Of a DNA stretch of 37,584 nucleotides, positions 7,516 through 27,126 are shown piece after piece. Source of the stretch: Bacteroidia bacterium (GTDB lineage Bacteria > Bacteroidota > Bacteroidia > Bacteroidales > Prolixibacteraceae); the NCBI GenBank assembly GCA_026391295.1, contig JAPLDS010000034.1, positions 7,013-44,596 of the forward strand. The letters run 5' to 3'. The position numbers were made by a program, and so were the translations under genes. How positions within the stretch are numbered: position 1 is the stretch's first letter; every line of letters starts with the position of its first letter. The notes under the pieces were generated by a model that had not been told where the DNA came from, did not search any database, and saw only the letters and a program-made list of their open reading frames with translations.

Positions 7516-8713
7516 ATGCTTCTAGTTCGTTTAATCTTCGAAAGTTTACGGTTTGCCTATCGCTCATTGGTGGTAAATCGACTTCGGACTTTTCTTTCAT
7601 TGTTAGGTATTACAATTGGGATTTTTTGCATTATCTCGGTCTTTACTGTGATCGACTCTCTTGAAAATACGATCCGGTCAAGTATGTCAAACCTTGGCAG
7701 TAACGTGATCTATGTTCAGAAATGGCCTTGGTCACCGCCACCAGGTGAGACGGAATACCCTTGGTGGAAATACCTTAACCGACCTGTTCCAACTCTTGAT
7801 GAGACAAACGAAGTATTGCGGCGTTCTACTTTAGCTCAATATGCGGTGTATAACTTCGGATTTAGTAGAACCCTTAAAAGTGGAAATAACAAAGCTGAGA
7901 ATGTTGAGATTATTGGTTCTTCCAATGGTTTAATCGAAACATGGAACTTAAAATTGCTGAGCGGTCGACCCTTGAAAGAAGAAGAGTTTAATTCTGGTGC
8001 AAGTAGTGTAATGCTCGGTGCAACAATCGCAGATCAACTTTTTCCAAATCGATCAGCAGTCGGAAAACAACTTAAAATACAGGGTTTTACAGTGAACGTC
8101 CTGGGTGCTGATACCTGCTCGATTAGCTGCACGAATGGTTGATCCGCGAAGTGATTTAGGACAAAGTATCATCGTAAAAGGGAAGCCTGATGTCACAGCT
8201 AGTCGACTTTCTGACGAACTTGAAGGGGTCATGCGATCAATACGACGAATAAAGCCGGCTGCAGAAAATAATTTTGCCCTTAATGAAGTGAGTCTAATCT
8301 CAGGTCAGCTCGATAGCGTATTCAAAGTTTTTAATATCGCAGGTTGGATCATTGGAGGGTTTGCAATCCTTGTTGGAGGGTTTGGAATTGCAAATATTAT
8401 GTTTGTCTCAGTCAAAGAAAGGACTAAAATTATCGGATTGCAAAAGGCACTTGGGGCTAAAAGTAAATTTATCTTACTTGAGTTTCTTTTTGAAGCGATT
8501 GTGCTATCAATTATAGGTGGGGCGATCGGTCTGATGATCATCTATGGCTTAACATTTGTGGTTAGCAGGACTTTTGATTTTAACCTTACCTTGTCGATGG
8601 GAAATATTATTACTGGCCTGTCAATCAGTGTGGTAATCGGACTTATTGCAGGTGTGGTTCCGGCTAGAACTGCCGCTCGATTAGATCCTGTTGAGGCGAT
8701 GAATAGAGTTTAG
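7516..8713 (+). pseudogene. MacB/FtsX-like ABC transporter permease, frame broken by an internal loss
   Basis: Two overlapping frames together form one MacB-type permease. The first frame (ATG 7516, or TTG 7504) runs to 8142 and has the N-terminal segment LRTFLSLLGITIGI and the periplasmic MacB core domain. After VNVLG (codon GGT 8104-8106) it becomes unrelated and stops. The second frame resumes at VLIPARLAARMVD from 8105 and continues through the three C-terminal membrane helices (ILVGGFGIANIMFVSV, EALGAK-like KALGAKSKFILLEF, GVVPARTAARLDP) to TAG 8713. Family members have roughly 15-20 residues between these two blocks, so a short segment of 3n+2 bases seems to be missing. Not a simple one-base slip. 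Such permeases export substrates with a separate or fused ATPase; none is adjacent here. Confidence 0.8.
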
Positions 8714-8752
8714 AGATTTCCCTGAAATGTTAAGCAGTTGAAAGACCCTGAC

Positions 8753-9571
8753 TTACTCTTTTTTTTCCAAGTCTAAAGCGATTAATTTCTCGATGTTATT
8801 GGTTAAATCAATAAATTCTTCAACCGATAACTGTTCGGGTCTTCTAGTTAGAAGCACGGCATCAAGTTCCTCAATTCGTGGAGAAAATCCTCTGATGCTG
8901 TTTCGAAGCATCTTGCGACGTTGGTTAAAAGCTTGTTTTACAACCTTGAAAAAGAGCTTCTCATTACACCCAAGCTCTGTTCTATCGTTTGCAGTAAGTC
9001 GTATGACGGCTGATTGAACTTTTGGTGGGGGCTCGAAGACGTGAGGTGGAACATCAATTAAATACTCAATGTCGTACCAAGCTTGCAGGAATACACTTAA
9101 TATTCCGTAGACTTTAGATCCTGGTCCAGAGGCAATTCGCTTGGCGACCTCTTTCTGAAGCATACATACAACTTCGGGAATTAACAATCTATTGTATAGT
9201 ACTTTAAAGAATATCTGAGATGAGATATTGTAAGGTAGGTTTCCGATTATTGCAAATGGAGTGTCTGAGACCTCTTTGGCAATGTCGATCTGAAGAAAAT
9301 CACCCGTGATAATTCGATCCTTTAACTGTGGAAAATGTTGATTTAAATAGTCAACAGATTCATGGTCTATCTCAATGACAGATGTTTCATAGGCGCTGTT
9401 TTCCAAAAGAAAATTCGTTAGAACACCCATTCCTGGACCAATTTCCAAAACCTTGGTGAGATTTGTCGCCTTTAGTGAATCGACAATCTCTTTGGCAATA
9501 TTTTTATCGGTTAGGAAGTGTTGTCCTAGACTTTTCTTTGGCTTTACTAACATGCTTACTTTTAGATTCAT
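8753..9571 (-). CDS. rsmA: 16S rRNA dimethyladenosine transferase
   Basis: RsmA (KsgA) dimethylates the two adjacent adenosines in the helix 45 loop of 16S rRNA late in small-subunit assembly. The 272-residue protein has KKSLGQHFLTD near the N-terminus, the SAM-binding LEIGPGMGVLT, the catalytic NLPYN motif and PPPKVQSAVI. The C-terminal domain includes NQRRKMLRNS. The start is ATG 9571; an ATG six codons in (9553) is also plausible. The gene is complete and converges with the broken permease gene across 39 bases. Confidence 0.95.
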   Translation of the reverse strand: MNLKVSMLVKPKKSLGQHFLTDKNIAKEIVDSLKATNLTKVLEIGPGMGVLTNFLLENSAYETSVIEIDHESVDYLNQHFPQLKDRIITGDFLQIDIAKEVSDTPFAIIGNLPYNISSQIFFKVLYNRLLIPEVVCMLQKEVAKRIASGPGSKVYGILSVFLQAWYDIEYLIDVPPHVFEPPPKVQSAVIRLTANDRTELGCNEKLFFKVVKQAFNQRRKMLRNSIRGFSPRIEELDAVLLTRRPEQLSVEEFIDLTNNIEKLIALDLEKKE

Positions 9572-9621
9572 TTTTGGATGAGCTATAAATCTGTGTCTTT
9601 GAAATAATTACTCATCGGGGT

Positions 9622-9629
9622 CAAAAATA
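9622..9629 (-). promoter_or_regulatory. Probable -7 box of the rsmA promoter
   Basis: The minus strand reads TATTTTTG, matching TAnnTTTG, about 50 bases upstream of the rsmA ATG. No clear -33 element. The plus-strand side of this 196-base gap (9572-9767) shows no equally good box for the following permease gene. Confidence 0.4.
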
Positions 9630-9767
9630 CAAAATTGTTAGCTGTTTTAATCAGCGGTTGTAAAATGCTCGTAGACAAGTCGCGCGATCAATTGCCTTTC
9701 GCTGATTATTCAACGAAGTAATTTTCCAAACCTAAAAAACGTTATTTTTACCACAAATGCATTTCAC

Positions 9768-11030
9768 GTGTCTCAGCTAAACATAGAACTATTTATTGCG
9801 CGTCGGATTTTTAGATCTCAGAAAACTTCCCGTAGGTTTTCCGAGTCTATTGTTTCATTTGCTGTTTTTGGAATAGCATTTGGACTTTTTGTGATGCTTT
9901 TGTCTATTGCCGTTGTGACCGGATTTAAGAAGGAGATACGCAATAAGGTTATCGGTTTTGGTTCTCATATTCAACTGGTTAATTTTGATTCTAACTCTTC
10001 TTATGAGACCGTTCCAGTCCCGAAGCATCAACCTTGGTTGTCGTCTGTAAGTCAATTGCCTGGGGTGAAAAATATTCAGGTATTTGCCACCAAACCTGGG
10101 ATTATTAAAACCGTCGATGAGATTCATGGGATCGTGGTCAAAGGGGTAGGAGCCGATTTCGACTGGTCGTTTTTCAAAGAAAATTTGGTAGAAGGATCGG
10201 TCTTTACAGTTTTAGACTCGGTAAGATCTGATGATGTTTTAATCTCCAAGCAGGTGGCTAAGTTGTTGAAATTAAAGGTTGGAGATCCTTTGTATACCTA
10301 TTTTCTCAATGAGGAAAGTAAGGAGCAGAAGATGCGAAAGTTTAAGATTTCCGGCATTTTCAGCACCAGTTTAGAAGAATTTGATCGCCTTTTTGTCTTG
10401 GCTGATCTTCGGCATGTACAAAAACTAAATAATTGGAATGAAGATCAAGTGAGTGGATTTGAAATTTCGATTTCAGACTTTAGTCAGCTCGCTTCCTTAA
10501 CACAGCAGGTTCGGCGCATCACCTTAAAATATTCGAAGGACGATGAGGCCGTCGTTCGTCCAGTTGCCATCACCTCTAAATATCCCCAGATCTTCGATTG
10601 GCTCAACTTATTGGATATGAATGTTTGGATAATCCTTGGATTGATTATTCTTGTTGCCGGATTTAATATGGTAAGTGGTTTGCTCATTCTAATGCTAGAA
10701 AGAACGACAATGATCGGCGTTTTGAAAGCTTTGGGTGCGCCTAATTGGAGCATTCGTAAGGTCTTTATCTATATCTCCACATTTCTTATTCTTCGTGGTA
10801 TGTTGTGGGGTAATCTCGCTGCATTTGCCTTTTTTCTTATTCAGAAACAATTTGGTTTGTTTACCCTCGATCCTACAGCTTATTATTTGAATACGGTCCC
10901 TATTAACGTTGAACTTTATCCAATTGTTTTGCTTAATCTAGGGACTATTTTCGTTACGCTGTTGATGTTGTTGGTCCCATCTTGGTATGTGACAAAGATC
11001 GATCCAGACAAGGCAATCCGCTTTGATTAG
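9768..11030 (+). CDS. FtsX-like ABC transporter permease, LolC/LolE family
   Basis: A 420-residue permease with one N-terminal membrane helix (SFAVFGIAFGLFVMLLSIAV, about residues 29-48), a large periplasmic domain and three C-terminal helices. It resembles LolC/E, which pull lipoproteins from the inner membrane for delivery to LolA. The N-terminal IARRIF and the C-terminal GVLKALGAPNWSIRKVF coupling segment and DPDKAIRF tail are family-like. The start is GTG 9768; the ATG at 9757 is out of frame and stops after seven codons. The ATPase partner (LolD type) is not in the window, so the substrate is inferred only from family. Confidence 0.85.
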   Translation: MSQLNIELFIARRIFRSQKTSRRFSESIVSFAVFGIAFGLFVMLLSIAVVTGFKKEIRNKVIGFGSHIQLVNFDSNSSYETVPVPKHQPWLSSVSQLPGVKNIQVFATKPGIIKTVDEIHGIVVKGVGADFDWSFFKENLVEGSVFTVLDSVRSDDVLISKQVAKLLKLKVGDPLYTYFLNEESKEQKMRKFKISGIFSTSLEEFDRLFVLADLRHVQKLNNWNEDQVSGFEISISDFSQLASLTQQVRRITLKYSKDDEAVVRPVAITSKYPQIFDWLNLLDMNVWIILGLIILVAGFNMVSGLLILMLERTTMIGVLKALGAPNWSIRKVFIYISTFLILRGMLWGNLAAFAFFLIQKQFGLFTLDPTAYYLNTVPINVELYPIVLLNLGTIFVTLLMLLVPSWYVTKIDPDKAIRFD

Positions 11031-11094
11031 CTCACTGACGCCATTTTTTACCTAAAAATATTTGCAGCGTGTCATTAGATATGCTGATTTTTTA

Positions 11095-11102
11095 TACTTT
11101 TG
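11095..11102 (+). promoter_or_regulatory. -7 box of the tRNA-Arg promoter
   Basis: TACTTTTG fits TAnnTTTG and lies 13 bases before the mature tRNA 5' end. The surrounding 13-mer TATACTTTTGCAC recurs exactly in front of tRNA-Ser on the other strand (near 19165), which supports both as real tRNA promoters. Confidence 0.6.
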
Positions 11103-11115
11103 CACCACTTTAAAA

Positions 11116-11189
11116 GGTCTGGTAGCTCAGCTGGATAGAGCAACAGATTTCTAATCTGTAGGTCATGGGTTCGAATCCCATCCGGATCA
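11116..11189 (+). tRNA. tRNA-Arg (anticodon TCT)
   Basis: A full cloverleaf of 74 nt: acceptor GGTCTGG pairs with CCGGATC (with G-T pairs), D-arm with AGCTCAGCTGGATAGAGC, anticodon stem ACAGA/TCTGT around loop TTTCTAA giving anticodon TCT, and T-arm ATGGG-TTCGAAT-CCCAT. The 3' CCA is not encoded. It reads AGA codons. Confidence 0.95.
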
Positions 11190-11199
11190 CAGAAAAAGC

Positions 11200-11240
11200 A
11201 AAGGCTTGTAAATAAATTATTTACAAGCCTTTCTGTTTTT
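11200..11240 (+). terminator. Intrinsic terminator after tRNA-Arg
   Basis: A perfect 15-bp inverted repeat (11200-11214 with 11218-11232, three-base loop) followed by CTGTTTTT, 10 bases after the tRNA. It may also serve the convergent ABC-F gene, which ends at 11274. Confidence 0.85.
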
Positions 11241-11273
11241 ATTAAGCCTTATTGAAGACTGTTTATCAGTCAA

Positions 11274-12884
11274 TTATTTTTGTTTGTTTCGCTCGAGTTC
11301 TCGCAAGTTGTCCATTTTCTTCTTCTGAAGAAAGCTGTTGATATCTCCTAAGTGTTCTTTGACCTGCTTGTTGCCAAACTCAAAAACCTTGGTCACTAAA
11401 CCGGATAGAAAATCACGATCGTGAGAAACAAGAATTAAGGTGCCATAAAAATTCATGTCAAGATGATTGGTAGGCTCATCAAGAATCAAAAGATTTACTG
11501 GCTCAAGCAGTAGTTTGATCATCGCTAAACGAGTCCGTTCTCCTCCAGATAATACTTTTACTTTCTTGGTGATATTGTCACCTCCAAACATAAATGCACC
11601 AAGAATATCTTTTATTTTACTTCGGATATCTCCCTTGGCAACATCGTCGATAGTCTGAAATACAGTCGTCTCTTCATCGAGCAGCGAGGCTTGATTTTGA
11701 GCAAAATAACCGATCATCGTATTGTGCCCAAGTGTTAGTGTCCCTTGGTAGTCTATCTCACCCATTAATCCTTTGACTAATGTTGATTTTCCTTCGCCAT
11801 TTTTCCCTACAAAGGCAACACGCTCGCCCCGCTGTATGGTTAAGGATGCATTTTTAAATACCACATGATCGTCATAGCTTTTACTCATTCCATCCAATAT
11901 AACAGGATAGTTTCCTGAACGAGGTGATGGCGGAAATTTAAGTCTTAAAGCCGAATTATCCTCTTCGTCAATCTCTACAATCGTAAGCTTTTCGAGCATT
12001 TTCACACGCGACTGAACTTGATTGGTCTTTGAGTAGGTCCCTTTAAAACGTTCGATAAAATCTTCGTTGTCGGCAATCATTTTACGCTGCTCTTCAAACT
12101 GCTTTAGCTGCTGGTCGCGACGTTCCTGTCGTAAAGTGAGATATTGTGAATAATTTACTTTGTAGTCGTAGATACGACCCATTGTAACTTCAATCGTTCT
12201 GGTTGTAATATTGTCGACAAAAGCCCTGTCATGAGAGATTAAAATAACTGCTTTGGCACTGTTGATAAGAAACTCCTCAAGCCATTGGATCGATTCGATG
12301 TCCATATGGTTGGTGGGCTCATCGAGTAAGATAAGATCGGGTTTCTTCAGCAGAATTTTAGCGAGCTCAATACGCATTCTCCAACCACCACTGAACTCAG
12401 CTGTTGGGCGGCCAAAATCTTCCCGTTGAAATCCTAATCCAAGTAAAATTTTTTCGACTTCTGCATCGTAATTGATCTCCTCGATGGCATAGAATTTCTC
12501 GCTTAACATCGAAACCTGGTCAATTAGGTCGTAGTAGCTCTCAGACTCGTAGTCTGTTCGAGTCGCCATCTCATGGTTTAAGGCATCGATCTCTTTTTGC
12601 ATCTCGAAAATCCCAGCAAATGCTTGAGCTGCTTCCTCGAAAACAGTTCGATTGTCATCGGCCATTAAATGTTGAGGAAGATAGGCTATCACTGCATCTT
12701 TGGGTGCCGATATCTTACCCGATGAAGGAGATTGGGCTCCAGCAATGATTTTAAGTAAGGTTGATTTTCCAGCGCCATTTTTACCCATTAGGGCAATCCG
12801 ATCTTTGTCGTTGATGACAAATGAAATATCTTTAAATAAGGTCGTTCCTCCAAAGGCTACGGTAAGTCCATCAACTGAGATCAT
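11274..12884 (-). CDS. ABC-F family ATPase with an 11-residue gap in the second ATPase domain
   Basis: A soluble protein of about 536 residues with two ABC ATPase domains and no membrane segments, so a ribosome-associated ABC-F (EttA/Uup/YheS-like) factor rather than a transporter. Domain 1: Walker A GKNGAGKST (34-42), signature FSGGW (164-168), Walker B LILLDE and H-loop SHD near 217-219. The linker region (about 240-310) is charged. Domain 2: GKNGEGKST (360-368), LSGGE (445-449), LLILDE, then NHLD followed almost at once by MNFYGTLILVSHD. Domain 1 has 25 residues from NHMD to the end of SHDR; domain 2 has only 14, so the helix between D-loop and H-loop is shortened by 11 residues. I chose ATG 12884 because the alternative start at 12926 lies upstream of a TATATTTG -7 box. 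Confidence 0.9.
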   Translation of the reverse strand: MISVDGLTVAFGGTTLFKDISFVINDKDRIALMGKNGAGKSTLLKIIAGAQSPSSGKISAPKDAVIAYLPQHLMADDNRTVFEEAAQAFAGIFEMQKEIDALNHEMATRTDYESESYYDLIDQVSMLSEKFYAIEEINYDAEVEKILLGLGFQREDFGRPTAEFSGGWRMRIELAKILLKKPDLILLDEPTNHMDIESIQWLEEFLINSAKAVILISHDRAFVDNITTRTIEVTMGRIYDYKVNYSQYLTLRQERRDQQLKQFEEQRKMIADNEDFIERFKGTYSKTNQVQSRVKMLEKLTIVEIDEEDNSALRLKFPPSPRSGNYPVILDGMSKSYDDHVVFKNASLTIQRGERVAFVGKNGEGKSTLVKGLMGEIDYQGTLTLGHNTMIGYFAQNQASLLDEETTVFQTIDDVAKGDIRSKIKDILGAFMFGGDNITKKVKVLSGGERTRLAMIKLLLEPVNLLILDEPTNHLDMNFYGTLILVSHDRDFLSGLVTKVFEFGNKQVKEHLGDINSFLQKKKMDNLRELERNKQK

Positions 12885-12904
12885 AATTGGTTTTTTGTAA
12901 AACG

Positions 12905-12912
12905 CAAATATA
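12905..12912 (-). promoter_or_regulatory. -7 box of the ABC-F gene promoter
   Basis: The minus strand reads TATATTTG, an exact TAnnTTTG match, about 20 bases before the ATG at 12884. It falls inside the longer possible reading frame and so argues for the shorter start. The rest of 12913-13186 is very AT-rich and shows no other convincing element. Confidence 0.5.
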
Positions 12913-13186
12913 GCACTTTCATTCAATTCACTAAGCGAAGTTTTTTATTCTATAGTCTGTTGTTAGTCAGGTTTTTAGTTTGTTATTTTTTGTTTTATTC
13001 GTATTTTATCTATTATAGTTCTGTGAATAGCCAACTAAATTGAGTTTCTATCTTTTATTTTTCTAAAAGGTCTCTTTTTTGAAGTTTTAAGTTGAGATTT
13101 TGATAAAATAATAGTTGTTTCGATTTAAAATTTATTAATTTTCACGATCAATTGATTTAGATTTTTAACATGCTAACTTGTTATCA

Positions 13187-13903
13187 ATGAAAAATTTAAT
13201 TCTTTTTCGTCCGTTCAGGAGACTTACTCTGCTGTTTGTCGTGGCAGTTGCTTTTAATTCGTGCTCTATATCACATAAATATGTGAAGGAGGCTAGGGCT
13301 AAATGGCAGAATGAAATAGGGGAGTTTAAGAAGCAGGATGTTGCTCATCCAGATCCACAAGGGGCGGTGCTATTTACAGGTAGTTCCAGCATTCGGTTAT
13401 GGTCAACACTTCAAGCTGATGTTAAGCCATATCCGGTTATTCAACGTGGTTTTGGCGGTTCAAAATTCTCTGATTTAGCCGTTTATGCGAAGGATATTAT
13501 TTATCCTCATCAGTTTATGGCTTTAGTAATTTTTGAAGCCAATGATATTACGGGCGACAAAACGGATAAAACACCCAAAGAGGTTGCGAAGTTATTTGAA
13601 AATATCGTTCAGGTTGTTCGTGAGAAATATACTCGGAAACCTATTTTTGTGGTTGCCATCACGCCGACCTCTAGTCGATGGAAGGTGTGGCCTCAAATTC
13701 AAGAGGCGAATCGATTATTGAAAGAGACTTGTCGAAAGTTACCAAATACTTATTTTATCGACACTGTTGCATTTTACTTAAACAAAGAGGGTAAGCCGCG
13801 AGATGAGCTATTTGGCAAGGATTTTCTTCATCAAAATCGAGATGGCTATCGGATTTGGGGAACGTTAATTCGAAAAAGTTTAGATGAAGTTTTAAGGCAA
13901 TAG
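13187..13903 (+). CDS. SGNH/GDSL-type hydrolase, predicted lipoprotein
   Basis: About 238 residues. The N-terminus has a positive region, a hydrophobic stretch (LTLLFVVAVAF) and the lipobox-like NSC, so it is probably a lipoprotein facing the periplasm or cell surface. SGNH hydrolase blocks are present: FTGSSSIRLW (block I, with serine where classical GDSL enzymes have Asp before the nucleophile), GFGG, EANDI and DFLHQNRDGY carrying the Asp-x-x-His dyad. The GSSS form of block I is known in one subgroup of the superfamily. Substrate is not evident; esterase or carbohydrate deacetylase activity is possible. ATG 13187 preferred over TTG 13178. Confidence 0.8.
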   Translation: MKNLILFRPFRRLTLLFVVAVAFNSCSISHKYVKEARAKWQNEIGEFKKQDVAHPDPQGAVLFTGSSSIRLWSTLQADVKPYPVIQRGFGGSKFSDLAVYAKDIIYPHQFMALVIFEANDITGDKTDKTPKEVAKLFENIVQVVREKYTRKPIFVVAITPTSSRWKVWPQIQEANRLLKETCRKLPNTYFIDTVAFYLNKEGKPRDELFGKDFLHQNRDGYRIWGTLIRKSLDEVLRQ

Positions 13904-13936
13904 CAGAATTTATTTAAAAATTAGCGCGGGAAAAGC

Positions 13937-13944
13937 TACCTTTG
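13937..13944 (+). promoter_or_regulatory. Probable -7 box upstream of the DUF4494-like gene
   Basis: TACCTTTG matches TAnnTTTG; TTTA lies 20 bases upstream as a weak -33. The leader to the ATG at 14047 would be about 95 bases. Confidence 0.45.
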
Positions 13945-14046
13945 TAGTTCATGATTTTCGTTCGCGTGGTATATCGATCCTAGTGCGATAATTATTAAAT
14001 GCATTGGGTGTCAACCCTATTTTATAACTTAAATTAATTTTCCTCG

Positions 14047-14622
14047 ATGAATACTTGGTTTGAATGTACTGCGAAATATGTTAAAATGGACGAGTCTGGC
14101 CATGAGCGGACTGTAGGAGAGACCTATTTGCTCGATGCCGTATCTTTTACGGAAGCTGAAAGTCGAATTTTCAAGGAGTTGGCTACCATGGTGACCGGTG
14201 ATTTTATGGTTAGTCGGATCTCTAAGACACGTATTTCGGAGATTATACCATCTGATAATGGTGATCGTTGGTATAAGGCGAAAGTTACTTTTATCACCGT
14301 TGACGAGGAGAGTGGCAAAGAAAAGCGCGTTTCGCAGATGGTCTTAGTCTTTTCTGATAGTATTAAGGCTGCATATGATCAAGTTATTGAGTCGATGCAA
14401 GGGATGATGGCTGACTTTGAGATTAGCGCGATTAGTGAGAGTACCATTTTAGATGTATTCCCCTATGAGGTTGGTGCTATTTTGCCTCCAGGTAATTTCA
14501 CCCCATTGGCTGCTGTCAGCCTGCCTGATATTGATGATGCAAACTTCTTAAGTGAGGTGCCAGAGTCTGAAGAGGTGAAGTCTGAAGAGTTGGAAGACGA
14601 AGAAGAGGAAACAGAAATTTAA
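14047..14622 (+). CDS. DUF4494-like protein of unknown function
   Basis: A 191-residue soluble protein starting MNTWFECTAKYVKMDE. It shows two similar halves: each has a segment of the type W(Y/F)xxxxxxxxDEsG-KERxV followed by a segment of the type SFTEAESRI or SIKAAYDQV and then ISAISES/VSRISKT. This internal duplication and the N-terminal sequence fit the Bacteroidota DUF4494 family. The tail from about residue 170 is almost purely acidic (Glu/Asp). No catalytic motif or signal peptide is visible. It stands 74 bases before the peroxiredoxin gene on the same strand. Confidence 0.75.
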   Translation: MNTWFECTAKYVKMDESGHERTVGETYLLDAVSFTEAESRIFKELATMVTGDFMVSRISKTRISEIIPSDNGDRWYKAKVTFITVDEESGKEKRVSQMVLVFSDSIKAAYDQVIESMQGMMADFEISAISESTILDVFPYEVGAILPPGNFTPLAAVSLPDIDDANFLSEVPESEEVKSEELEDEEEETEI

Positions 14623-14695
14623 GGATGAATCTCAAAACAAAATAAATCTTGAATTGTTATTTTATAGTAATTACACAAATTAAAAATTAAAATTT

Positions 14696-15328
14696 ATGAG
14701 CACATTAGTTGGAAAAAAAGCTCCAGAATTCAAAGCAAATGCCGTGATTAACGGTAATGATATTGTTGAAAATTTCTCACTTGATCAATTTATTGGCAAG
14801 AAATATGTGGTATTTTTCTTTTACCCCCTTGATTTTACTTTCGTTTGCCCGACAGAACTTCTTGCATTTCAAGAGAAGTTAGCTGAATTTGAGAAACGTG
14901 AAACAGCTGTTGTTGGTTGTTCTGTTGATTCTCAGTTCTCTCATTGGGCTTGGTTAAATACCGAAAAGAAAAATGGCGGTATTAAGAGCGTTAAATATCC
15001 TATCGTGGCCGATTTATCAAAAACTATCGCTGAAAACTATGGTGTTTTAGCAGGTGAGTATGATATCGACGAAGAAGGAAAGTCTGTATTTAACGGAGCT
15101 CCAGTAGCTTACCGTGGTCTTTTCCTAATCGATAAAAAGGGTGTTGTTCGTCATCAGTTGGTTAATGACCTTCCTCTAGGTCGTAGCGTTGATGAGGCTT
15201 TACGTACAGTTGATGCCTTACGCCACTTTGAAGAGTATGGTGAAGTTTGTCCTGCTAACTGGCAAGAAGGTAAAGATGCCATGAATGCAACTGCAGAAGG
15301 TGTTGCTGGATATCTTTCGAATCACTAA
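14696..15328 (+). CDS. 2-Cys peroxiredoxin (AhpC/Tpx1 type)
   Basis: A 210-residue typical 2-Cys peroxiredoxin that reduces hydrogen peroxide and organic hydroperoxides in the cytoplasm. The peroxidatic cysteine C51 sits in DFTFVCPTE and the resolving cysteine C185 in GEVCPANW. The residues between them (SVDSQFSHWAWL, PLGRSVDEALR) are canonical. The C-terminal tail is long enough for the usual helix. It is followed directly by a strong bidirectional terminator. No AhpF-like reductase gene is nearby. Confidence 0.93.
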   Translation: MSTLVGKKAPEFKANAVINGNDIVENFSLDQFIGKKYVVFFFYPLDFTFVCPTELLAFQEKLAEFEKRETAVVGCSVDSQFSHWAWLNTEKKNGGIKSVKYPIVADLSKTIAENYGVLAGEYDIDEEGKSVFNGAPVAYRGLFLIDKKGVVRHQLVNDLPLGRSVDEALRTVDALRHFEEYGEVCPANWQEGKDAMNATAEGVAGYLSNH

Positions 15329-15342
15329 TCCAAAGAATAGTT

Positions 15343-15382
15343 AATAAAAAGGGAGCTCAATCAATTGAGCTCCCTTTTTATT
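15343..15382. terminator. Bidirectional terminator between peroxiredoxin and co-chaperonin genes
   Basis: A perfect 18-bp inverted repeat with a four-base loop (TCAA); the core GGGAGCTCAA pairs with TTGAGCTCCC, and flanking A and T runs give a U-tract in both directions. It separates two convergent genes. Confidence 0.9.
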
Positions 15383-15398
15383 TTTAACCATCTTCAGA

Positions 15399-15782: not shown

Positions 15783-15819
15783 AGGTGTTGCTTCTGTGGT
15801 TTTGAATATTTTGTAGTTC

Positions 15820-19003: not shown

Positions 19004-19063
19004 ATTCGAACGCCCGACACCTGGTTTTGGAGACCAGTGCTCTACCAACTGAGCTACACCCGT
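19004..19063 (-). pseudogene. tRNA-Trp (anticodon CCA) lacking its 3' end
   Basis: On the minus strand from 19063: acceptor 5' strand ACGGGTG, TA, D-arm GCTC...GAGC, anticodon stem CTGGT/ACCAG around loop CTCCAAA (anticodon CCA), variable loop GTGTC, T-stem 5' strand GGGCG and T-loop TTCGAAT. The next bases should be CGCCC and then CACCCGT to close T-stem and acceptor, but the sequence reads ATATTGAGG. Only 60 of about 73 nt are present, so as written the RNA cannot form an acceptor stem. It follows tRNA-Ser by five bases and would share its transcript. Confidence 0.8.
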
Positions 19064-19068
19064 AGAAG

Positions 19069-19153
19069 CGGAGAGAGAGGGATTCGAACCCCCGGTACCT
19101 CTCGGTACAGCGGTTTTCAAGACCGCCGCAATCGACCACTCTGCCATCTCTCC
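19069..19153 (-). tRNA. tRNA-Ser (anticodon TGA)
   Basis: An 85-nt class II tRNA: acceptor GGAGAGA/TCTCTCC, anticodon stem GCGGT/ACCGC with loop CTTGAAA giving anticodon TGA, a long variable arm, T-arm with loop TTCGAAT, discriminator G. CCA is not encoded. All stems close, unlike the adjacent tRNA-Trp. Confidence 0.95.
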
Positions 19154-19164
19154 AAGAGCGTGTG

Positions 19165-19172
19165 CAAAAGTA
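19165..19172 (-). promoter_or_regulatory. -7 box of the tRNA-Ser/tRNA-Trp promoter
   Basis: The minus strand reads TACTTTTG within TATACTTTTGCAC, the same 13-mer as in front of tRNA-Arg, 11 bases before the tRNA-Ser 5' end. Confidence 0.6.
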
Positions 19173-19376
19173 TACTTTATTTTGATTCGTCAAAAATTAT
19201 CTGACATTATTTTTAAAGAATTTAAAGTTTAGGATAGAATTAGGTATTGTTGGATTTGTAATATTTTTTTACTTGATTTGCCTAGTTAATTTTTTTACAA
19301 CTTTATAATCATTTTTTTACAATTATTCCTTCTAGCCCTATAAAAGCTTGAAATAATTTTTTTTTAATAATTTTTG

Positions 19377-19384
19377 TATATTTG
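19377..19384 (+). promoter_or_regulatory. Probable -7 box of the HU gene promoter
   Basis: TATATTTG matches TAnnTTTG, 64 bases before the HU ATG, in a very AT-rich tract with long T runs. The preceding 19173-19376 has no gene. Confidence 0.5.
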
Positions 19385-19447
19385 TGAATTATATTTAACT
19401 TTCGGCAAATCTGAATCTTCGTTTAATAATTTAATTTCAAATTTACT

Positions 19448-19720
19448 ATGAACAAAACTCAATTAATTGATGCAGTTGCTGCTGAGGCAGGACTAACTAA
19501 AGTTGATGCAAGAAAAGCTGTTGATGCATTTGTAAAAGCAACTGGCGAACAACTTAAACAAGGTGAGAAAATCGCTCTTGTAGGATTTGGTACTTTCTCA
19601 GTGTCTGAAAGACCTGCACGTGAAGGTCGTAACCCACAGACTGGTGCAAAAATCAAAATTGCTGCTAAGAAAATTGTAAAATTCAAAGCTGGTAGCGAAC
19701 TTAACGACTCTGTACAATAG
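19448..19720 (+). CDS. DNA-binding protein HU
   Basis: A 90-residue HU/IHF family protein, exactly the usual length: MNKTQLIDAVAAEAGL, ARKAVDAF, VGFGTFSVSERPAREGRNPQTG (the DNA-contacting arm, about residues 47-65) and the end FKAGSELNDSVQ. HU coats and bends DNA as part of the nucleoid. Standalone gene with a long AT-rich leader and a perfect terminator 12 bases after the stop. Confidence 0.96.
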   Translation: MNKTQLIDAVAAEAGLTKVDARKAVDAFVKATGEQLKQGEKIALVGFGTFSVSERPAREGRNPQTGAKIKIAAKKIVKFKAGSELNDSVQ

Positions 19721-19732
19721 TCGTTTAAATCA

Positions 19733-19774
19733 GGCATAAAAAAAGGAGGTTTTTCAACCTCCTTTTTTTATGCC
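19733..19774. terminator. Bidirectional terminator between HU and MsbA-like genes
   Basis: A perfect 18-bp inverted repeat (19733-19750 with 19757-19774) with loop TTTTCA. The arms contain runs of seven A and seven T, so each strand ends in a U-tract. It ends HU on the plus strand and the exporter gene on the minus strand. Confidence 0.92.
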
Positions 19775-19783
19775 TATACTTTT

Positions 19784-21607
19784 CTAGAAGCTCTGCATCC
19801 CATGAAGCTTCTTGTAAATTCCGTCTAATGCAAGTAATTCTTCGTGATTTCCGCGCTCTACAATAGCTCCTTCGTGAAAAACACAGATTAAATCAGCATT
19901 CTTTATCGTCGAAAGTCGATGCGCAATCACAATAGAGGTTCTATTCTTCATGAGGTTCTCTAACGCCTCTTGGACTAGTTTTTCCGACTCTGTATCTAAA
20001 GCGGAGGTAGCCTCATCTAAAATCAAAATAGGGGGGTTTTTGAGCACCGCACGCGCAATAGAGACCCGTTGACGTTGACCGCCGGATAATTTGCCCCCTC
20101 GGTCACCTATGTTTGAGTAATATCCTTCCGCAGTAGCAGCGATAAATTCATGCGCATTCGCCACCTTAGCCGCAGCTTCTACTTGCTCTAGTGTCGCATC
20201 TTCCACACCAAAAGCGATATTATTAAAGAACGTATCGTTAAATAAGATGGGATCTTGGTTCACATTGCCCATAAGTCCACGTAGGTCGGCAATCTTATAA
20301 TCACGCACATCAATGCCATCTACACAGATTTGCCCCTCGCTGACATCATAAAAACGTGGAAGAAGGTCTACGAAGGTTGATTTACCAGATCCTGACTGTC
20401 CAACTAATGCAATAGTTTTACCAATAGGGATAGTTAGGTTGACCTTTTTAAGGACATCATCATCTTGATAGCGGAAGGTTACATCTTTATATTCAATCTG
20501 AGAAACAAAGGTTTTTACGGCGATGGGATTTTCTTTGTTGACGATGTTGTTTTCTGCAAGCATCACCATGTCAATTCGTTCCATAGATGCTAATCCTTTT
20601 TGGATCGCATAAAAGGCTGTGGTAAATGATTTCGCAGGATTAATAATACTATAGAAAAATACCAGATAGGTGATAAATCCTTGAGGCGTCAAAGCGCTAT
20701 TATGGCTTAAAACCAACTTGCCACCATACCACAACACCAATACAATAACGGCTGTTCCTAAGAATTCCGACATTGGATGAGCTAAATACCGGCGCCACAT
20801 CAGGCCATTCATAATATGATAGTAGTCCGAATTTTGCTTCTCGAAATGCTCGCCAGCCTTTTTTTCTGCATTAAAAGCTTTAATAATACGCAAGCCACTG
20901 AGTGATTCTTCAATGGTAGAAAGCAATTCACCCATTTTATTCTGACCACGCATCGATGGTTTCTTTAAGCTTTTTCCAACTTTACCGATTAAATACCCAA
21001 CTAAAGGGAGGATTAAAAAGACAAATAGGGTAAGCGACCACGACATATAGATCATAAAGGCTAATGACATTAATATGATAAGTGGATCTTTTAGGAGCAT
21101 CTCCAGTGAACTCATAATCGAGTTGTCGATCTCTTGCACATCACCAGTCATGCGGGCTATGATATCCCCCTTGCGCTCTTCAGAGAAAAATCCAATTGGA
21201 AGATGAAGGATTTTGGTGTACAGTTTGTTTCGGATGTCGCGAACCACGCCATTTCGCAAAGGAACAAGCATGTAGAGTGCCAAATAGGTGAAGAGCACTT
21301 TCAGAAACACCATAATCATCAGAAATATTCCAATGTAAACGAGTGCTTTTTCATTCCCGAACTTAAGGATGATATCGCTAAGCTGGTACATAATGTTATC
21401 CTTCAGACTACCTACGGTAAGTGCAAGCTCGGCAGGTTTAGTGGCTATCACTTTCTGTGTGCCAAATAGAACCCCCAGCACTGGCTCTAATGCCGCAAAC
21501 TGAAATGCCCCAAACATGGCAGCAAGCAGATTGAAGATAAACGCTCCCAAAACAAAGCGTTTATATGGCTTAACAAACCGTTTTAAAAGAAGGTAAAGAC
21601 CTTTCAC
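19784..21607 (-). CDS. ABC exporter, MsbA-like (lipid A flippase type)
   Basis: A 607-residue half transporter: a six-helix exporter domain (about residues 1-340) fused to an ATPase with Walker A GQSGSGKST (403-411), Q-loop near NQDPILFND, signature LSGGQ (507-511), Walker B ILILDE (527-532) and H-loop AHRLST. It resembles MsbA homodimers that flip lipid A-core across the inner membrane, though multidrug or peptide export cannot be excluded by sequence. It lies 45 bases downstream of purB on the same strand. Confidence 0.88.
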   Translation of the reverse strand: MKGLYLLLKRFVKPYKRFVLGAFIFNLLAAMFGAFQFAALEPVLGVLFGTQKVIATKPAELALTVGSLKDNIMYQLSDIILKFGNEKALVYIGIFLMIMVFLKVLFTYLALYMLVPLRNGVVRDIRNKLYTKILHLPIGFFSEERKGDIIARMTGDVQEIDNSIMSSLEMLLKDPLIILMSLAFMIYMSWSLTLFVFLILPLVGYLIGKVGKSLKKPSMRGQNKMGELLSTIEESLSGLRIIKAFNAEKKAGEHFEKQNSDYYHIMNGLMWRRYLAHPMSEFLGTAVIVLVLWYGGKLVLSHNSALTPQGFITYLVFFYSIINPAKSFTTAFYAIQKGLASMERIDMVMLAENNIVNKENPIAVKTFVSQIEYKDVTFRYQDDDVLKKVNLTIPIGKTIALVGQSGSGKSTFVDLLPRFYDVSEGQICVDGIDVRDYKIADLRGLMGNVNQDPILFNDTFFNNIAFGVEDATLEQVEAAAKVANAHEFIAATAEGYYSNIGDRGGKLSGGQRQRVSIARAVLKNPPILILDEATSALDTESEKLVQEALENLMKNRTSIVIAHRLSTIKNADLICVFHEGAIVERGNHEELLALDGIYKKLHGMQSF

Positions 21608-21652
21608 AAGTGTAGGTTATTAGTTTTTATAATCGTGGTTAACGATGTCTGC

Positions 21653-23002
21653 TTAAATAGAGACGCCTGTATAATTATACGGTGTGATAAGTTTTAATTC
21701 ACTTTTCAGGGCCTCGCTCACGTCTAGCTTATCAATAAATTCATGCATCACCTCACGATCGATCTTGCGATTTACACGCGTAAGTTCTTTTAAAGCCTCG
21801 TAAGGATTCGGATAAGCTTCACGTCGCAGAACGGTCTGAATAGCTTCCGCAATCACAACCCAGTTATCTTCCAGGTCACGATCGATAGCCTCTTTATTTA
21901 GGACTAATTTACCAAGTCCTTTCAAAGTTGATTTGATCGCTATGATTGTGTGCCCAATTGGTACTCCGATGTTCCGTAAAACGGTCGAGTCTGTAAGGTC
22001 GCGCTGCAATCTCGAGATCGGAAGTTTAGCTGATAAATGCTCAAATAGGGCGTTTGCAATACCTAAGTTACCCTCTGAATTTTCGAAATCTATTGGGTTA
22101 ACCTTATGTGGCATCGCGGAGGATCCAACCTCCCCTTTTTTAATTTGTTGCTTGAAATAATTCATGGAGATATAGGTCCATAAATCACGATCGAAATCAA
22201 TAAGTATGGTATTGATCCGCTTCATATTGTCGAATATCGCACCATCGCTATCGTAATGAGCAATCTGAGTAGTGGCCTGTGAGCGCTCTATCTTTAAAGC
22301 TTTACCTAGGAAGTTATTTCCAAATTCAGGCCAATTGATACTTGGATAAGCAACATGATGAGCATTGAAATTGCCTGTCGCACCTCCAAATTTACCGTAG
22401 AACGGAATATTCTTCAGACTAGCGAGTTGAACATTTAAGCGTTCTGCAAAAACTTTGATCTCTTTACCTAATCGAGTAGGTGTAGCTGGTTGTCCATGTG
22501 TTTTTGCCAACATCGAAACCTCTTCCCACTCTTTGGTCAGCGATTCCAATTTAGCGATTAGCTCTTCGATTAAAGGAAAGTATACCTTGTGAATCGCATC
22601 GCGCATGGAACAAGGTGATGCTGTATTATTGATATCTTGAGATGTTAGTCCAAAATGGATAAACTCTTTATACGATTGTAAATTTAAGGCATCGAATTTT
22701 TCCTTGATGAAATATTCAACCGCTTTAACATCATGGTTGGTGACTTTCTCAATATCCTTCACTTTATTTGCATCAGCTATCGAGAATGATTCATAGATCT
22801 GACGCAGTGCAGGCTTAAGTTTGGCATCAAAAGATTTTAGCTGAGGAAGCGGAAGCTCTACTAATGCAATGAAGTATTCAATCTCTACATAAACCCGATA
22901 TTTTATCAAGGCGTATTCTGAGAAATATTGACCTAATTCATCTACTTTGTCACGATATCTGCCATCTATAGGTGATATGGCGGTTAGGGATTGGATTTCC
23001 AT
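21653..23002 (-). CDS. purB: Adenylosuccinate lyase
   Basis: PurB cleaves SAICAR and adenylosuccinate with release of fumarate in purine synthesis. About 449 residues of the fumarase/aspartase superfamily: SPIDGRYRDKV near the N-terminus, TNHDVKAVEYF, HFGLTSQDINNTA, KTHGQPATPT and the signature loop GSSAMPHKVNPIDFEN with the catalytic serine. Start ATG 23002 chosen: the in-frame codon at 23026 overlaps a TACCTTTG -7 box. It is followed by the exporter gene; purH in the same window is in a separate unit. Confidence 0.96.
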   Translation of the reverse strand: MEIQSLTAISPIDGRYRDKVDELGQYFSEYALIKYRVYVEIEYFIALVELPLPQLKSFDAKLKPALRQIYESFSIADANKVKDIEKVTNHDVKAVEYFIKEKFDALNLQSYKEFIHFGLTSQDINNTASPCSMRDAIHKVYFPLIEELIAKLESLTKEWEEVSMLAKTHGQPATPTRLGKEIKVFAERLNVQLASLKNIPFYGKFGGATGNFNAHHVAYPSINWPEFGNNFLGKALKIERSQATTQIAHYDSDGAIFDNMKRINTILIDFDRDLWTYISMNYFKQQIKKGEVGSSAMPHKVNPIDFENSEGNLGIANALFEHLSAKLPISRLQRDLTDSTVLRNIGVPIGHTIIAIKSTLKGLGKLVLNKEAIDRDLEDNWVVIAEAIQTVLRREAYPNPYEALKELTRVNRKIDREVMHEFIDKLDVSEALKSELKLITPYNYTGVSI

Positions 23003-23025
23003 TTTGTCTCTTATTCTGTTTGCCA

Positions 23026-23033
23026 CAAAGGTA
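23026..23033 (-). promoter_or_regulatory. -7 box of the purB promoter
   Basis: The minus strand reads TACCTTTG, matching TAnnTTTG, 23 bases upstream of the purB ATG at 23002. It fixes the shorter start. No gene or other clear signal in 23034-23193. Confidence 0.5.
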
Positions 23034-23193
23034 GTAAATTCTCTGAAAATAGACTATTTGCCGCTTTTGTCGTTTGTTATTCTTGTGGATAGGGTTGAGG
23101 TGATATTCCAGACTCTTAGACATAGATCGCAATAGTGCCTTAATTGTAATCCGATAATTGTTAGGTGTTTGCGTGTAATTCCGATTCGTTAAG

Positions 23194-23688
23194 CTAGTTT
23201 TCTGCTGTATGTTTAACCTTCTTAATCGTCTCTTTTCTTGAGATTAACATAGGTACTGCAACGCCAACAGCAAGTGCCATCAAAATAAACAAGGTTTTTA
23301 GTCCGTAGCTTACCGTTTCAGCTAAAGAAATGGAGTAGGTGTCGCTTGTTGCGGCGGTACTTGAGAGCTTCATTAGTCCGAGCATCATCCGGTAGGCGAA
23401 AATCCCTGGAACCATAGGTATCACTGCGGGAATTGAAAATACCAATGGTGGGGCATGCTTCGTATGAGCTGCATAAACACTAAGAATTCCAATTAATGAT
23501 GCACCTGCAAAAGTGGCGATGGTAATCTCTACGTTTAATTGGATTAGGATAAGTTTTGTTAACCCTCCAAGAGCGGCAATAATCCAAATAATAAATAAGG
23601 TCCTTTGCGGCACATTAAATAGGATGGCAAAGCCAAGAGCTGCAAACCCAAACCAAATTCCTTTTTCTAATAGTGTAAAGAGCTCCAT
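23194..23688 (-). CDS. ThrE-type threonine/serine exporter, C-terminal half (small subunit)
   Basis: A 164-residue membrane protein with four to five helices. FIWIIAAL-like segments, VIPMVPGIFAYRMM (compare PGxPxx in the larger half) and the spacing fit the ThrE_2 (DUF3815) family, which pairs with the ThrE_1 half to form an amino-acid exporter. The partner gene is immediately upstream (56-base gap, same strand). Substrate is inferred from the family only. Confidence 0.85.
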   Translation of the reverse strand: MELFTLLEKGIWFGFAALGFAILFNVPQRTLFIIWIIAALGGLTKLILIQLNVEITIATFAGASLIGILSVYAAHTKHAPPLVFSIPAVIPMVPGIFAYRMMLGLMKLSSTAATSDTYSISLAETVSYGLKTLFILMALAVGVAVPMLISRKETIKKVKHTAEN

Positions 23689-23744
23689 AAATAATATATG
23701 TATTATAAGGTAGTGCCTTTTTCGAATTTCATAAACTTAGCTCC

Positions 23745-24515
23745 TTAGAGGCTATATATTTGCATCGCAAGCATTAATCCAAGTGCGATTGAAAAGGCGA
23801 TGATAAGCCCATTAACCCCTCTAACCATTCCGTTTAAGGTGTTTCCATCCATCAGATCGGAGAGTGAGTTGATTAAAGGGACGCCAGGAATTAGAAATAG
23901 CACCGATGTAGCTAGTGCATTTTCTGGAGAATGTCCAATATTCAACTTAATAGACAATCCCGCTACCATAGCTGCCGTAAAGGAGGCAAAAAAGATAGAA
24001 ATATAGGGATTGAATCGCATCTTTAGGGCTTCTTGGCGAATAAACAAACCGAAGAATGTGGCCGAAAATGCCACAATCATCTCTGGAGCTTCCCCTCCAA
24101 ATAATCGACAGAAAGAGGCGCCTGCGAGGGCTACTAAGGCAAGCACGACAAATCTGGGATAGTGGGGTAGTGCCTTTATACGTTCGATATCTTGATTGAT
24201 TTGCTCAACTGACAGTCCTTCTTCAACAACCCTCCAGCTCAGCCGACTAATGCCAGAAACCAGTTTGAAGTTTACCCCATGAGGTGGTGTTCGTTTAACG
24301 CTGCTGGTATGATCCAATCCACCTTCTTTATTGACGGTGAGCATCAGAGAACGACTAGTGATTAAGAGCTCAACTTCATACCCCAGGGCATCTGCAATTC
24401 TGTTGATGGTCGTTCGGACGCGACCTGTGCTTGCCCCATTGCCCATCAATAAGGTTCCCACATCGAGAAGCATCTCTTCAACAGCTTTTGAATTAGTGGT
24501 TCTTTCTTTAGCCAT
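23745..24515 (-). CDS. ThrE-type threonine/serine exporter, N-terminal half (DUF1212)
   Basis: About 256 residues. The N-terminal soluble part (1-110) has the DUF1212 features LLMGNGASTGRVRTTINRIADALG and LSWRVVEEGLS. The C-terminal part has about five membrane helices with FLIPGVPLINSLSDLMDG, the conserved ThrE motif. I prefer the ATG at 24515 (MAKERTT); 24530 is an alternative. TAACTTTA about 40 bases upstream could be a degenerate -7 box. Confidence 0.88.
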   Translation of the reverse strand: MAKERTTNSKAVEEMLLDVGTLLMGNGASTGRVRTTINRIADALGYEVELLITSRSLMLTVNKEGGLDHTSSVKRTPPHGVNFKLVSGISRLSWRVVEEGLSVEQINQDIERIKALPHYPRFVVLALVALAGASFCRLFGGEAPEMIVAFSATFFGLFIRQEALKMRFNPYISIFFASFTAAMVAGLSIKLNIGHSPENALATSVLFLIPGVPLINSLSDLMDGNTLNGMVRGVNGLIIAFSIALGLMLAMQIYSL

Positions 24516-24706
24516 CTTTAAATAAATCATTATTAAACTAATCAGGATTGTAAAGTTAGCATCAATTTTTGTTTAGAGGTGCAAAGAGATTTTAATTTTA
24601 TGATTTATATGTTGAACACTATTGTCATCAGCTTTGTTTAAACATTATTAACTAGTTAACTTTAAAATGTTGTATATTCTTATACTAAATACTAAATTTT
24701 TAGCGT

Positions 24707-25141
24707 ATGAAAAGGAATGAATTTTTGACCGCATTGGGAATATCCGCAAGTACAGTAGTTTTTGCGCCCTATCTCGTCTCTTGTAGTAAAGGTAGCTCGT
24801 TGAGCGACAGTGGAAATAATGGAACGCCAAGCGCAACCATTGACTTCACCCTTGACTTGACTATGCCTGCTAACTCAGCATTAAATACCAATGGAAGCTC
24901 AATGATTAGTAATGGAGTTATTGTTGCAAAAACCTCCGGTGGCATGTATATTGCAGTAGCTTCAAAATGTACGCATCAAGGCTATACCTTGGCTTATGAC
25001 AATGCGACTAGTGAGTTTCATTGTGCTAGTCATGGGTCGAATTTCACTACCACAGGACTGGTGGTCAATGGACCTGCAGCGACATCGTTAAAAGTTTATA
25101 AGACTCAACTGACTGGAACAACTCTTCGCGTTTATTCTTAG
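24707..25141 (+). CDS. Single-domain Rieske [2Fe-2S] lipoprotein
   Basis: A 144-residue protein with an N-terminal signal sequence and lipobox YLVSC (Cys26), followed by a Ser/Gly/Asn-rich spacer. The Rieske cluster ligands are C88-T-H90 and C106-A-S-H109 in CTHQG and CASHGSNF. It is therefore a membrane-anchored extracytoplasmic redox protein, not a ring-hydroxylase subunit. The N-terminus has KR where Tat signals have RR, leaving the export route open (folded Fe-S proteins usually need Tat). Partner enzyme is not evident. Its stop overlaps the ancestral stop of the convergent esterase gene. Confidence 0.85.
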   Translation: MKRNEFLTALGISASTVVFAPYLVSCSKGSSLSDSGNNGTPSATIDFTLDLTMPANSALNTNGSSMISNGVIVAKTSGGMYIAVASKCTHQGYTLAYDNATSEFHCASHGSNFTTTGLVVNGPAATSLKVYKTQLTGTTLRVYS

Positions 25142-25975
25142 CGTCTAAATTTCTCGCCAGCGAATTTCAATCCATCATAAAGGCCTGTGCGCCAATACGA
25201 CCAGGAGCGACCGCCATCCAATATGCAAGAGGGAATTGCCTTTGTAGAGGAAATCGTCGTCGCCACAATCGATGTAAAATCGGATGCTTTTAAATTTTTC
25301 TGCTGCCACGATGTGGATCAGATGAAGTGGATTCGTTGCTTTCCAAGTTTCACTAAGTCGCTCAGCCCCTTTTAAGTTTTTCCCGTAGATCGATTTGAAA
25401 TATCCATCATATTGACCATCTGGCTGCTGTGTGATCTCTTCATCTGAAAATACAGCACTGCTTAAGGCGATAACACTCGAGAAAAGATCGGGGTTGCGCA
25501 TTGCAAGGGATAATGAGCCATAGCCACCCATCGAAAGTCCACCGATGGCACGGAACTCTTTTTTCGCGCGGATGCGATATTCCTTCTCAATATAAGGTAT
25601 GAATTCTTGTGTGAACATATCCGACCAACGGTTTTTCCCGTCAAAGCTATTGCAATACCAAGCAACTTTTCCATCGGGTATAATCAAAATACAGGCTGGA
25701 AAGTCGCCTTCAGCAATCCCTTTGTCAGCTATTTGAGCCGCCTCACCAAATTGAATCCAGCCAGTTTCATCATCCGAAAATCCATGAAGAAGGTAGACAA
25801 CAGGATAACTGCGGCTCGACGTTTGATAGTCGGCTGGAAGATAGACCGAATAGTTTACTGGATAGTCAACGAGTTTGCTCTTAAAGCTTAGGCTTTCAAT
25901 CGTTTTTCCTTTTTGAGCAAAGGAGATTATGGGCAGAGCTAAAAATAGCAAGGGAAGTAGGAGAGTCTTTGTCAT
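25138..25975 (-). pseudogene. Secreted alpha/beta-hydrolase esterase, frame broken near the C-terminus
   Basis: A putative esterase (esterase D / feruloyl-esterase-like family) with a signal peptide ending SFAQ when started at ATG 25975. Present: oxyanion region LLHGFSDDETGW, nucleophile elbow GGLSMGG (Ser148 by this start), and the acid-residue segment YIDCGDDDFL. After HI (codon ATT, 25220-25222) the frame runs into an unrelated tail and stops at 25175. The other frame immediately continues with DGGRSWSYWRTGLYDGLKF and stops at TAA 25138. Members of the family have about 14 more residues here, so a 3n+2-base segment seems lost. In addition the catalytic His of the GGHSW motif reads Arg (CGC). 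Confidence 0.8.
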
Positions 25976-25993
25976 AAATGGGATAAATCTGAG

Positions 25994-26015
25994 TTCATCC
26001 ATCAGGTGACGGACA
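25994..26015. repeat. REP-like imperfect palindrome, copy 1
   Basis: TTCATCCATCAGGTGACGGA: near-palindromic around the centre. Matches copy 2 at 26070-26091 in 16 of the first 20 positions. Lies just upstream of the esterase start. Confidence 0.4.
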
Positions 26016-26069
26016 AAATTCGATTATTAAATGGTTTAGACAAAGATAGAAAATGATTGATTAAAAGAC

Positions 26070-26091
26070 TTCATCCGCCAGCAGACGGATG
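26070..26091. repeat. REP-like imperfect palindrome, copy 2
   Basis: TTCATCCGCCAGCAGACGGA then TG; CATCCG pairs with CGGATG. Lies between the DHOD-like gene end and the esterase start, so it could act as a 3' hairpin of the former. A pyrimidine-rich tract follows (26100-26150). Confidence 0.4.
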
Positions 26092-26147
26092 CACTTTGGA
26101 TTCTTTTTTTACTTTGCCATTTGCCCTTTTAATTTTCCATTTTTCTC

Positions 26148-27126
26148 TTACACCATCGGGTATTTTTTCAAAATTTCGTTCGATCTCATCAATATATCCA
26201 CATACTGAGCGCGTTTGTAGGCATACGGATCTTTGGTGTTTTTCATCGCTAATTTACCTCTGAAATCAGCAATTGTTTTGTAGCCACGAGCATCCATCCA
26301 CTCTTCAAGCATCTCGATCATTGTGGTGATATGACTTGCTTTATTGCGGTAGATAGCGCTCACCACCTGCACTGTTCCTGCACCAGCAAGGAGCATCTTA
26401 ATCATGTCGCTACCATCTGAGATCCCTCTGCTCGTGCAGATATCGGCCGCAATGTTGCCGTATAATAACCCTGCAAACCTCAGACTTAATTGATAATCTT
26501 TAGGATGGGTAAGATCGAAAGGATAGTAGAACTCTTCTGTCTCAATGTTTATCTCCGGTTGGAAGAAGCGGTTAAAAATCACGATGCCATCAACACCCGC
26601 TTGATCTAGTTTGCCAATAAGATTCAATGGATTAGAGTAGAAAACACTGAGTTTAACACTTACAGGTATTTTTAAAACGCTTTTTAATTTTTTCAAAATG
26701 TGTATCTGGCGGGCTTCGATATCGGCTCCAGTATGACTCCCATCAACAGGAACGTCGTAAAAGTTCAGCTCTAGTCCGGCAATACCTGTTTTTTCAAGCT
26801 CGAGTGCATACTCTTCCCACGACTCATCATACATAGCGTTTAAGCTAGCAAAGACAGGAATAGTCACTTTAGAAAGAAGTTTCTCCAGTTTGAAGATATG
26901 TTCTTTTGCACCGCCATGCTTCACCTCCGGAAAGAGATTAACCATTTCGGCATTTCGGTCGTCGTATTCTGCAAGTTGATCTTGAAGTTGTATCTGTTCG
27001 AGATGGATCTGTTCTTCAAAGAGAGAGCGGTAGAATCACATCGAGGTCTTCAACTAAACTTGAAGCACCAAGAATAATGGGGTTTTTTAGTTCAACACCC
27101 ATATAAGTAGTTCTTAAATCTGCCAT
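26148..27126 (-). pseudogene. Dihydroorotate dehydrogenase-like protein, frame broken near the N-terminus
   Basis: The gene starts at ATG 27126 with MADLRTTYMGVELKNPIILG, the FMN-barrel start of the dihydroorotate-dehydrogenase-like family. After DLDVI (27034-27048) this frame quickly stops. Another frame resumes with YRSLFEEQIHLEQIQL and runs through DRNAEMVNLFPEV to the stop at 26148, including ASLNAM, GLELNFYD, VSVKLSVF, GVDGIVIFNRF, TSRGISDGSDMIKMLLAGA and VQVVSAIYR. About 12 residues normally separate these blocks, so a 3n+2-base loss is likely. As it stands a shortened product could start at Met 26945, without the N-terminal part of the barrel. The family is FMN-dependent; its natural substrate is not certain. 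Confidence 0.8.

Follow-up and report, generated by a model that had tools for sequence, protein, structure and literature searches.

Background

The two systems closest to the case described here are the errors of scaffolding and gap closing in draft assemblies and the formation of pseudogenes by short deletions. The former leave runs of N of estimated length, overlapping contig ends which were not merged, and short joins of wrong length which fall independently of the reading frame; the latter leaves frame-breaking losses in genes which are still recognisable. Scaffolding tools, gap-filling tools and assembly quality are treated in the existing literature (PMC9575681 among others).

The window studied here is the whole stretch of 37,584 nucleotides presented above, i.e. 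bases 7013-44596 of contig C49 in a 2.93 Mb draft genome of 81 contigs (estimated completeness 97.48%, contamination 1.55%). A sequence-only reading had pointed out five genes in it, each deprived of a short block. From the comparison with related genomes we conclude that these five short forms are very probably unmarked joins of wrong length in a scaffolded draft, and that they would be absent from the organism itself. They resemble known scaffolding and gap-closing errors in the respects just listed and differ from them in that the joins carry neither N nor an excess of mismatches, and are for that reason invisible unless a relative is at hand. They resemble pseudogene formation in breaking the frame of recognisable genes and differ from it in that indispensable genes of which no other copy was found are hit and that selection on the broken genes of the window is not relaxed.

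Methods

Bases 1-29905 of the window were aligned three ways by MAFFT with two genomes of the same genus, G006 (contig C6) and G016 (contig C91). A sample of about 464 kb of the draft (G000), window and overlaps included, was then compared with the same relatives; 335,475 bases could be aligned to at least one of them and 166,851 to both, overlaps of about 100 bases between stretches being kept in these figures. BLAST pieces below 78% identity or shorter than 500 columns were dropped before counting, and five loci of the draft had no usable match (L036, L045, L051, L053 and L187). Losses shorter than 20 bases were left out of the counts, and the losses of the relatives were sorted by hand.

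Short losses in the window and elsewhere in the draft

Both relatives are collinear with the window (G006 to base 29905, G016 to base 31566), with an identity of 87-92%. The gaps of more than 10 bases found in the window only, in the three-way alignment, measure 53, 33, 32, 41 and 35 bases (near 8107, 11451, 19005, 25216 and 27032; see Table 1), while all five blocks are kept in G006 and in G016. This confirms each of the five losses at the place where the sequence-only reading had put it, and makes their lengths exact. The same reading had estimated that three of them fit 3n+2 and that one is exactly 33, which is indeed the case: 53, 41 and 35 are of the form 3n+2 and the loss of 33 bases is in frame.

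The G006 copy of the MacB-like permease has MacB_PCD and FtsX domains, its esterase matches PF00756 and its dihydroorotate-dehydrogenase-like (DHOD-like) gene matches NF005741, of which the window retains a partial match; the ABC-F ATPase gene of the window matches NF000355, and the gene at window 16785 is HtpG. Of the same-genus genomes, 13 have a best match which extends across the ABC-F site, and all 13 exceed the length of the window there by exactly 33 bases, which places the change on the side of the window. When the G006 stretches were used as queries, no second copy of any of the five genes was found in the draft among the best 40 of 54-60 candidates, these matches being the copies of the window itself, distant paralogues and unrelated short matches.

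Table 1. Positions of the losses, N runs and other length differences in the draft and its two relatives
Feature	Position	Strand	Difference	Relatives aligned
MacB-like permease gene (7504-8713)	join 8104..8108	+	53 bases missing, frame broken, two ORFs	both
ABC-F ATPase gene (11274-12926)	join 11451..11452	-	33 bases (11 residues) missing, in frame	both
Truncated tRNA-Trp	19005..19063	-	loss of 32 bases covering the 3' end of the gene and one half of the terminator hairpin	both
Esterase gene (25175-26002)	join 25216..25218	-	41 bases missing, frame broken	both
DHOD-like gene (26148 to ~27125)	join 27032..27035	-	35 bases missing, frame broken	both
PcrA/UvrD-type helicase			62 bases lost	both
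ABC transporter ATPase, near end	L044:10310		22 bases lost	both
Alpha-L-fucosidase			105 bases lost, in frame	both
Lysyl-tRNA synthetase			134 bases lost	both
MsbA-like transporter			100 bases lost	both
CysN			107 bases lost, reading frame split	one
Dehydrogenase E1 protein			131 bases lost, reading frame split	one
S46-family peptidase			97 bases lost, reading frame split	one
N run of 142	contig C49 6871-7012, directly before the first base of the window		~57 bases in the relatives	both
N run of 61			stands for ~22 bases
N run of 28			stands for ~-5 bases
N run of 25 (lysS)			stands for ~5 bases
N run of 5			stands for ~-10 bases; identical 10 bases flank the Ns on both sides
Uncounted	L041:8865		24 bases, in frame	one
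Uncounted	L185:10395		72 bases, in frame	one
Uncounted, non-coding	L188:11553 (G000:C10)		141 bases absent	compared with G006
Uncounted	L037:14574 (G000:C43)		116 bases net; tandem tRNA-Gly-like copy of G006 missing	one
Uncounted, non-coding	L043:9289, L043:9365			one
Uncounted, non-coding	L043:17611, L044:6127, L044:6158, L055:3730			against one only
G006-only loss	W:14562		36 bases, in frame, acidic tail	both
G006-only losses	W:23096, W:23137		outside any own open frame	both
G006-only loss	L043:13316		66 bases, in frame, glycine-rich repeat	both
G016-only loss	W:26091		39 bases by MAFFT	both
G016-only, smaller	L046:8442		10 bases, out of frame	both
G016-only, smaller	L043:13243		13 bases, out of frame	both
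Loss in G006	L189:5152		35 bases, A+T-rich, own open frame of 254	one
Loss in G016	L186:9459		42 bases	one

Beyond the five losses of the window, the 335 kb of alignable sequence contains eight more unmarked losses inside genes, of 22-134 bases. The similarity in size which the sequence-only reading had noticed thus holds within the window (32-53 bases) but not as the property of a process, given the range found elsewhere in the draft. Frames are broken in 10 of the 12 losses from protein genes, whose lengths are not multiples of three. The weakest case is the 22-base loss in the ABC transporter ATPase, which could be real, the end of this gene being poorly conserved. The window represents 9% of the aligned sequence, yet it holds 5 of the 13 losses (Poisson P 0.008, calculated after the fact); thin coverage of this contig is our guess as to the reason.

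Within the 166,851 bases aligned to both relatives, a loss of at least 20 bases which breaks a frame occurs in neither of them. The few longer losses which they do have keep the frame in low-complexity parts, or are located outside own open frames. The set of losses, described earlier as not typical of point decay, is therefore in excess over what the relatives display.

As for the differences left out of the count, the flanks of the one at L188:11553 are identical to G006 at 60 of 60 positions on each side, well above the usual identity with this genome, and it may be a mobile stretch or one shared recently. The one at L037:14574 could be due to the collapse of a tandem repeat, or else to a real change in copy number.

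Losses from indispensable genes

Two genes indispensable to the cell are among those hit: tRNA-Trp and the gene of lysyl-tRNA synthetase (lysS) are broken, and no other copy of either was found in this draft of an estimated 97.5% completeness. The tRNA-Trp of the window gives a weak RF00005 match and no ARAGORN call; an intact tRNA-Trp is called at the corresponding position of G006 (L028). None of the 35 tRNA matches of the draft (from the best 150 of 216 candidates) is an intact tRNA-Trp: ARAGORN reads an anticodon other than Trp in 34 of them, and the remaining one, which has the lowest score, is the truncated copy of the window. Likewise tRNA-Ile(GAT), tRNA-Ala(TGC), tRNA-Val(GAC) and tRNA-Thr(TGT) received no call among the loci of the draft which were scanned. 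The genes of tRNA-Ile(GAT) and tRNA-Ala(TGC) often lie within rRNA operons, which such drafts tend to lose. It is possible that a second tRNA-Trp or lysS is located in the unassembled part of the draft.

For the biological question lysS is the most telling case. The sole lysS gene found in the draft contains a run of 25 N together with the unmarked loss of 134 bases, which breaks the frame; the gene is in pieces, the last of them in another frame. The missing part codes for a conserved stretch which we take to be motif 3 of the class II enzymes. A class I lysyl-tRNA synthetase gave no match in the draft, with a model which matched 8 of 14 control genomes. In the rest of lysS we counted no replacement change for 32 silent ones on its own lineage (405 codons; as for the other genes outside the window, nine offsets were tried and the one giving the most silent changes was kept). 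This shows that lysS is under strong selection.

Selection on the broken genes

The alternative which survives best is that the deletions are real and recent, the lineage losing genes by short deletions (that is, by pseudogene formation), possibly through end-joining. Blunt losses of 22-134 bases with 0-3 bases of microhomology are compatible with end-joining too, and the flanks are otherwise well kept, with no excess of mismatches at the joins. Nevertheless we consider this alternative very unlikely. It would have to accommodate the damage to tRNA-Trp and lysS in the apparent absence of other copies, and it predicts a decay whose traces are missing from the window. On their own lineage, the four protein genes which are broken in the window have, in their main parts, 8 replacement changes for 122 silent ones (the pieces from the C-terminus of the esterase and from the start of the DHOD-like gene being left out of the sums after several frames had been tried), versus 37 for 405 in 13 intact ORFs of the window. 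Hence these genes were not decaying. This speaks against gene decay by deletion, neither relaxed selection nor further inactivating changes being found in them.

The corresponding figures outside the window, in frames chosen as for lysS, are 4/58 for the helicase and 1/8 for the fucosidase; they are higher and less clear, with small counts, for the MsbA-like transporter (3/5) and the PafA-type gene discussed below (4/11). Gaps of 1-2 bases are not in excess either: 50 are found in the genome of the window only, versus 139 in G006 only and 119 in G016 only, non-coding DNA included.

A point in favour of real deletions is the esterase: at a site about 10 bases from the join, its codon is for Arg and that of the relatives for His. 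The sequence-only reading had taken this Arg in place of the catalytic His as a sign of real decay in that gene. The change is present, but the main part of the esterase shows only 2 amino-acid-changing changes versus 19 silent ones on its own lineage, and the decay is not borne out.

N runs and a duplicated join

The sample of the draft contains eight runs of N, of 5-142 bases. Five of these eight can be compared with the relatives, and all five have the wrong length (see Table 1). In the stretches compared, G006 and G016 have no N runs. Moreover, an unmarked, imperfect duplication of 34 bases at L047:15150 breaks a gene of PafA-type alkaline phosphatase, as if overlapping contig ends had been butted together. 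If the deletions were real, a second explanation would have to be found for the runs of N and for the duplicated join.

Sequence at the joins

Microhomology at the 13 joins amounts to 0-3 bases, with a mean of 0.77, when about 0.67 is expected by chance according to our own reckoning; it is of 1, 1, 1, 1 and 2 bases at the five joins of the window. Slippage or recombination between direct repeats was rejected, as repeats of this length are about at chance level. No shared sequence was seen by eye at the joins. The GC content of the missing blocks is 0.30-0.51, versus 0.39 in four stretches of the relatives. Three of the 13 contexts, the terminator of tRNA-Trp included, exceed 95% of random ones in folding stability, in a test which is weak because the random contexts took in non-coding DNA. 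The other ten are not unusually stable, and a general signature of hairpins or of composition in the missing blocks was rejected.

These observations bear on two further explanations. The first is an artefact of another kind, hairpins being lost or local repeats collapsed by the assembler or by the sequencing chemistry, as the sequence-only reading had proposed. It would suit the block missing from tRNA-Trp, which holds half of a long terminator hairpin, the three contexts within the most stable 5%, and the tandem tRNA-Gly copy missing at L037:14574. With ten ordinary contexts out of 13 and direct repeats of 0-3 bases, such a cause is not general, and we give it almost no credit. The second, a biological process removing short internal segments of DNA from genes which would be restored or tolerated somehow, had been suggested by the similar sizes of losses which in the window all lie in genes, but is scarcely believable given dissimilar sizes in the wider sample (22-134 bases), joins without shared sequence, no intact copy found elsewhere for the genes tested, and two relatives free of such losses where all three genomes align.

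Probable unmarked assembly joins

We therefore return to the artefact of assembly, which was one of the two branches left by the sequence-only reading. It gains support from the broken tRNA-Trp and lysS, the N runs of wrong length, the duplicated join, the bluntness of the joins, the broken frames and the unrelaxed selection. Neighbouring contigs with some 22-134 bases absent between them would have been set directly against each other, or the gap filled with fewer bases than it needed; with the join left unmarked, the affected genes, tRNA-Trp and lysS included, would thereby appear to have lost a block. The joins were made, we infer, in a step of scaffolding or gap closing. One simple model of a scaffolder is insufficient, since the gaps marked by N are over-long while the unmarked joins are short of bases; at least two steps of the pipeline may have contributed.

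If contig ends were error-prone, additional mismatches would be expected at the joins, and the 11 joins examined in this respect, with both relatives, have no excess: changes confined to the genome of the window affect 9 of the 252 sites which lie no more than 12 bases from a join, versus 4086 of 107951 (3.8%) in the background. Sequence errors beside the joins commonly accompany assembly join artefacts, though these can occur without them. Among the best 80 of 232 GTDB contig matches there was no second assembly of this species; the top match reaches 96% and the record of the window itself was possibly left out.

By plain extrapolation, made either without the window (8 losses in 304 kb) or with it (13 in 335 kb), the whole draft may contain about 75-115 unmarked short gaps. 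That the chromosome of an uncultured Bacteroidia truly bears on the order of a hundred blunt deletions of 22-134 bases, with tRNA-Trp and lysS among their targets, strikes us as next to impossible; if it were true, the missing parts would need to be restored or supplied by a partner cell. The draft passes quality control as 97.5% complete and 1.55% contaminated, and yet its unmarked gaps would mimic frameshifts, pseudogenes or missing motifs. Comparison with congeners reveals such gaps, and the result is to be read as a warning on draft genomes, without biological import.

Other observations on the window

A further gap found in the window only, of 10 bases, lies near 25133 at the end of the gene 24707-25141. 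Both relatives have two copies of a short direct repeat at this site, and the gap looks like ordinary slippage. After base 29905 the window has no match in the stretch of G006 which was compared. Further on, window 31622-37582 is occupied by an open frame which counts 1987 codons or more and runs past the end of the contig.
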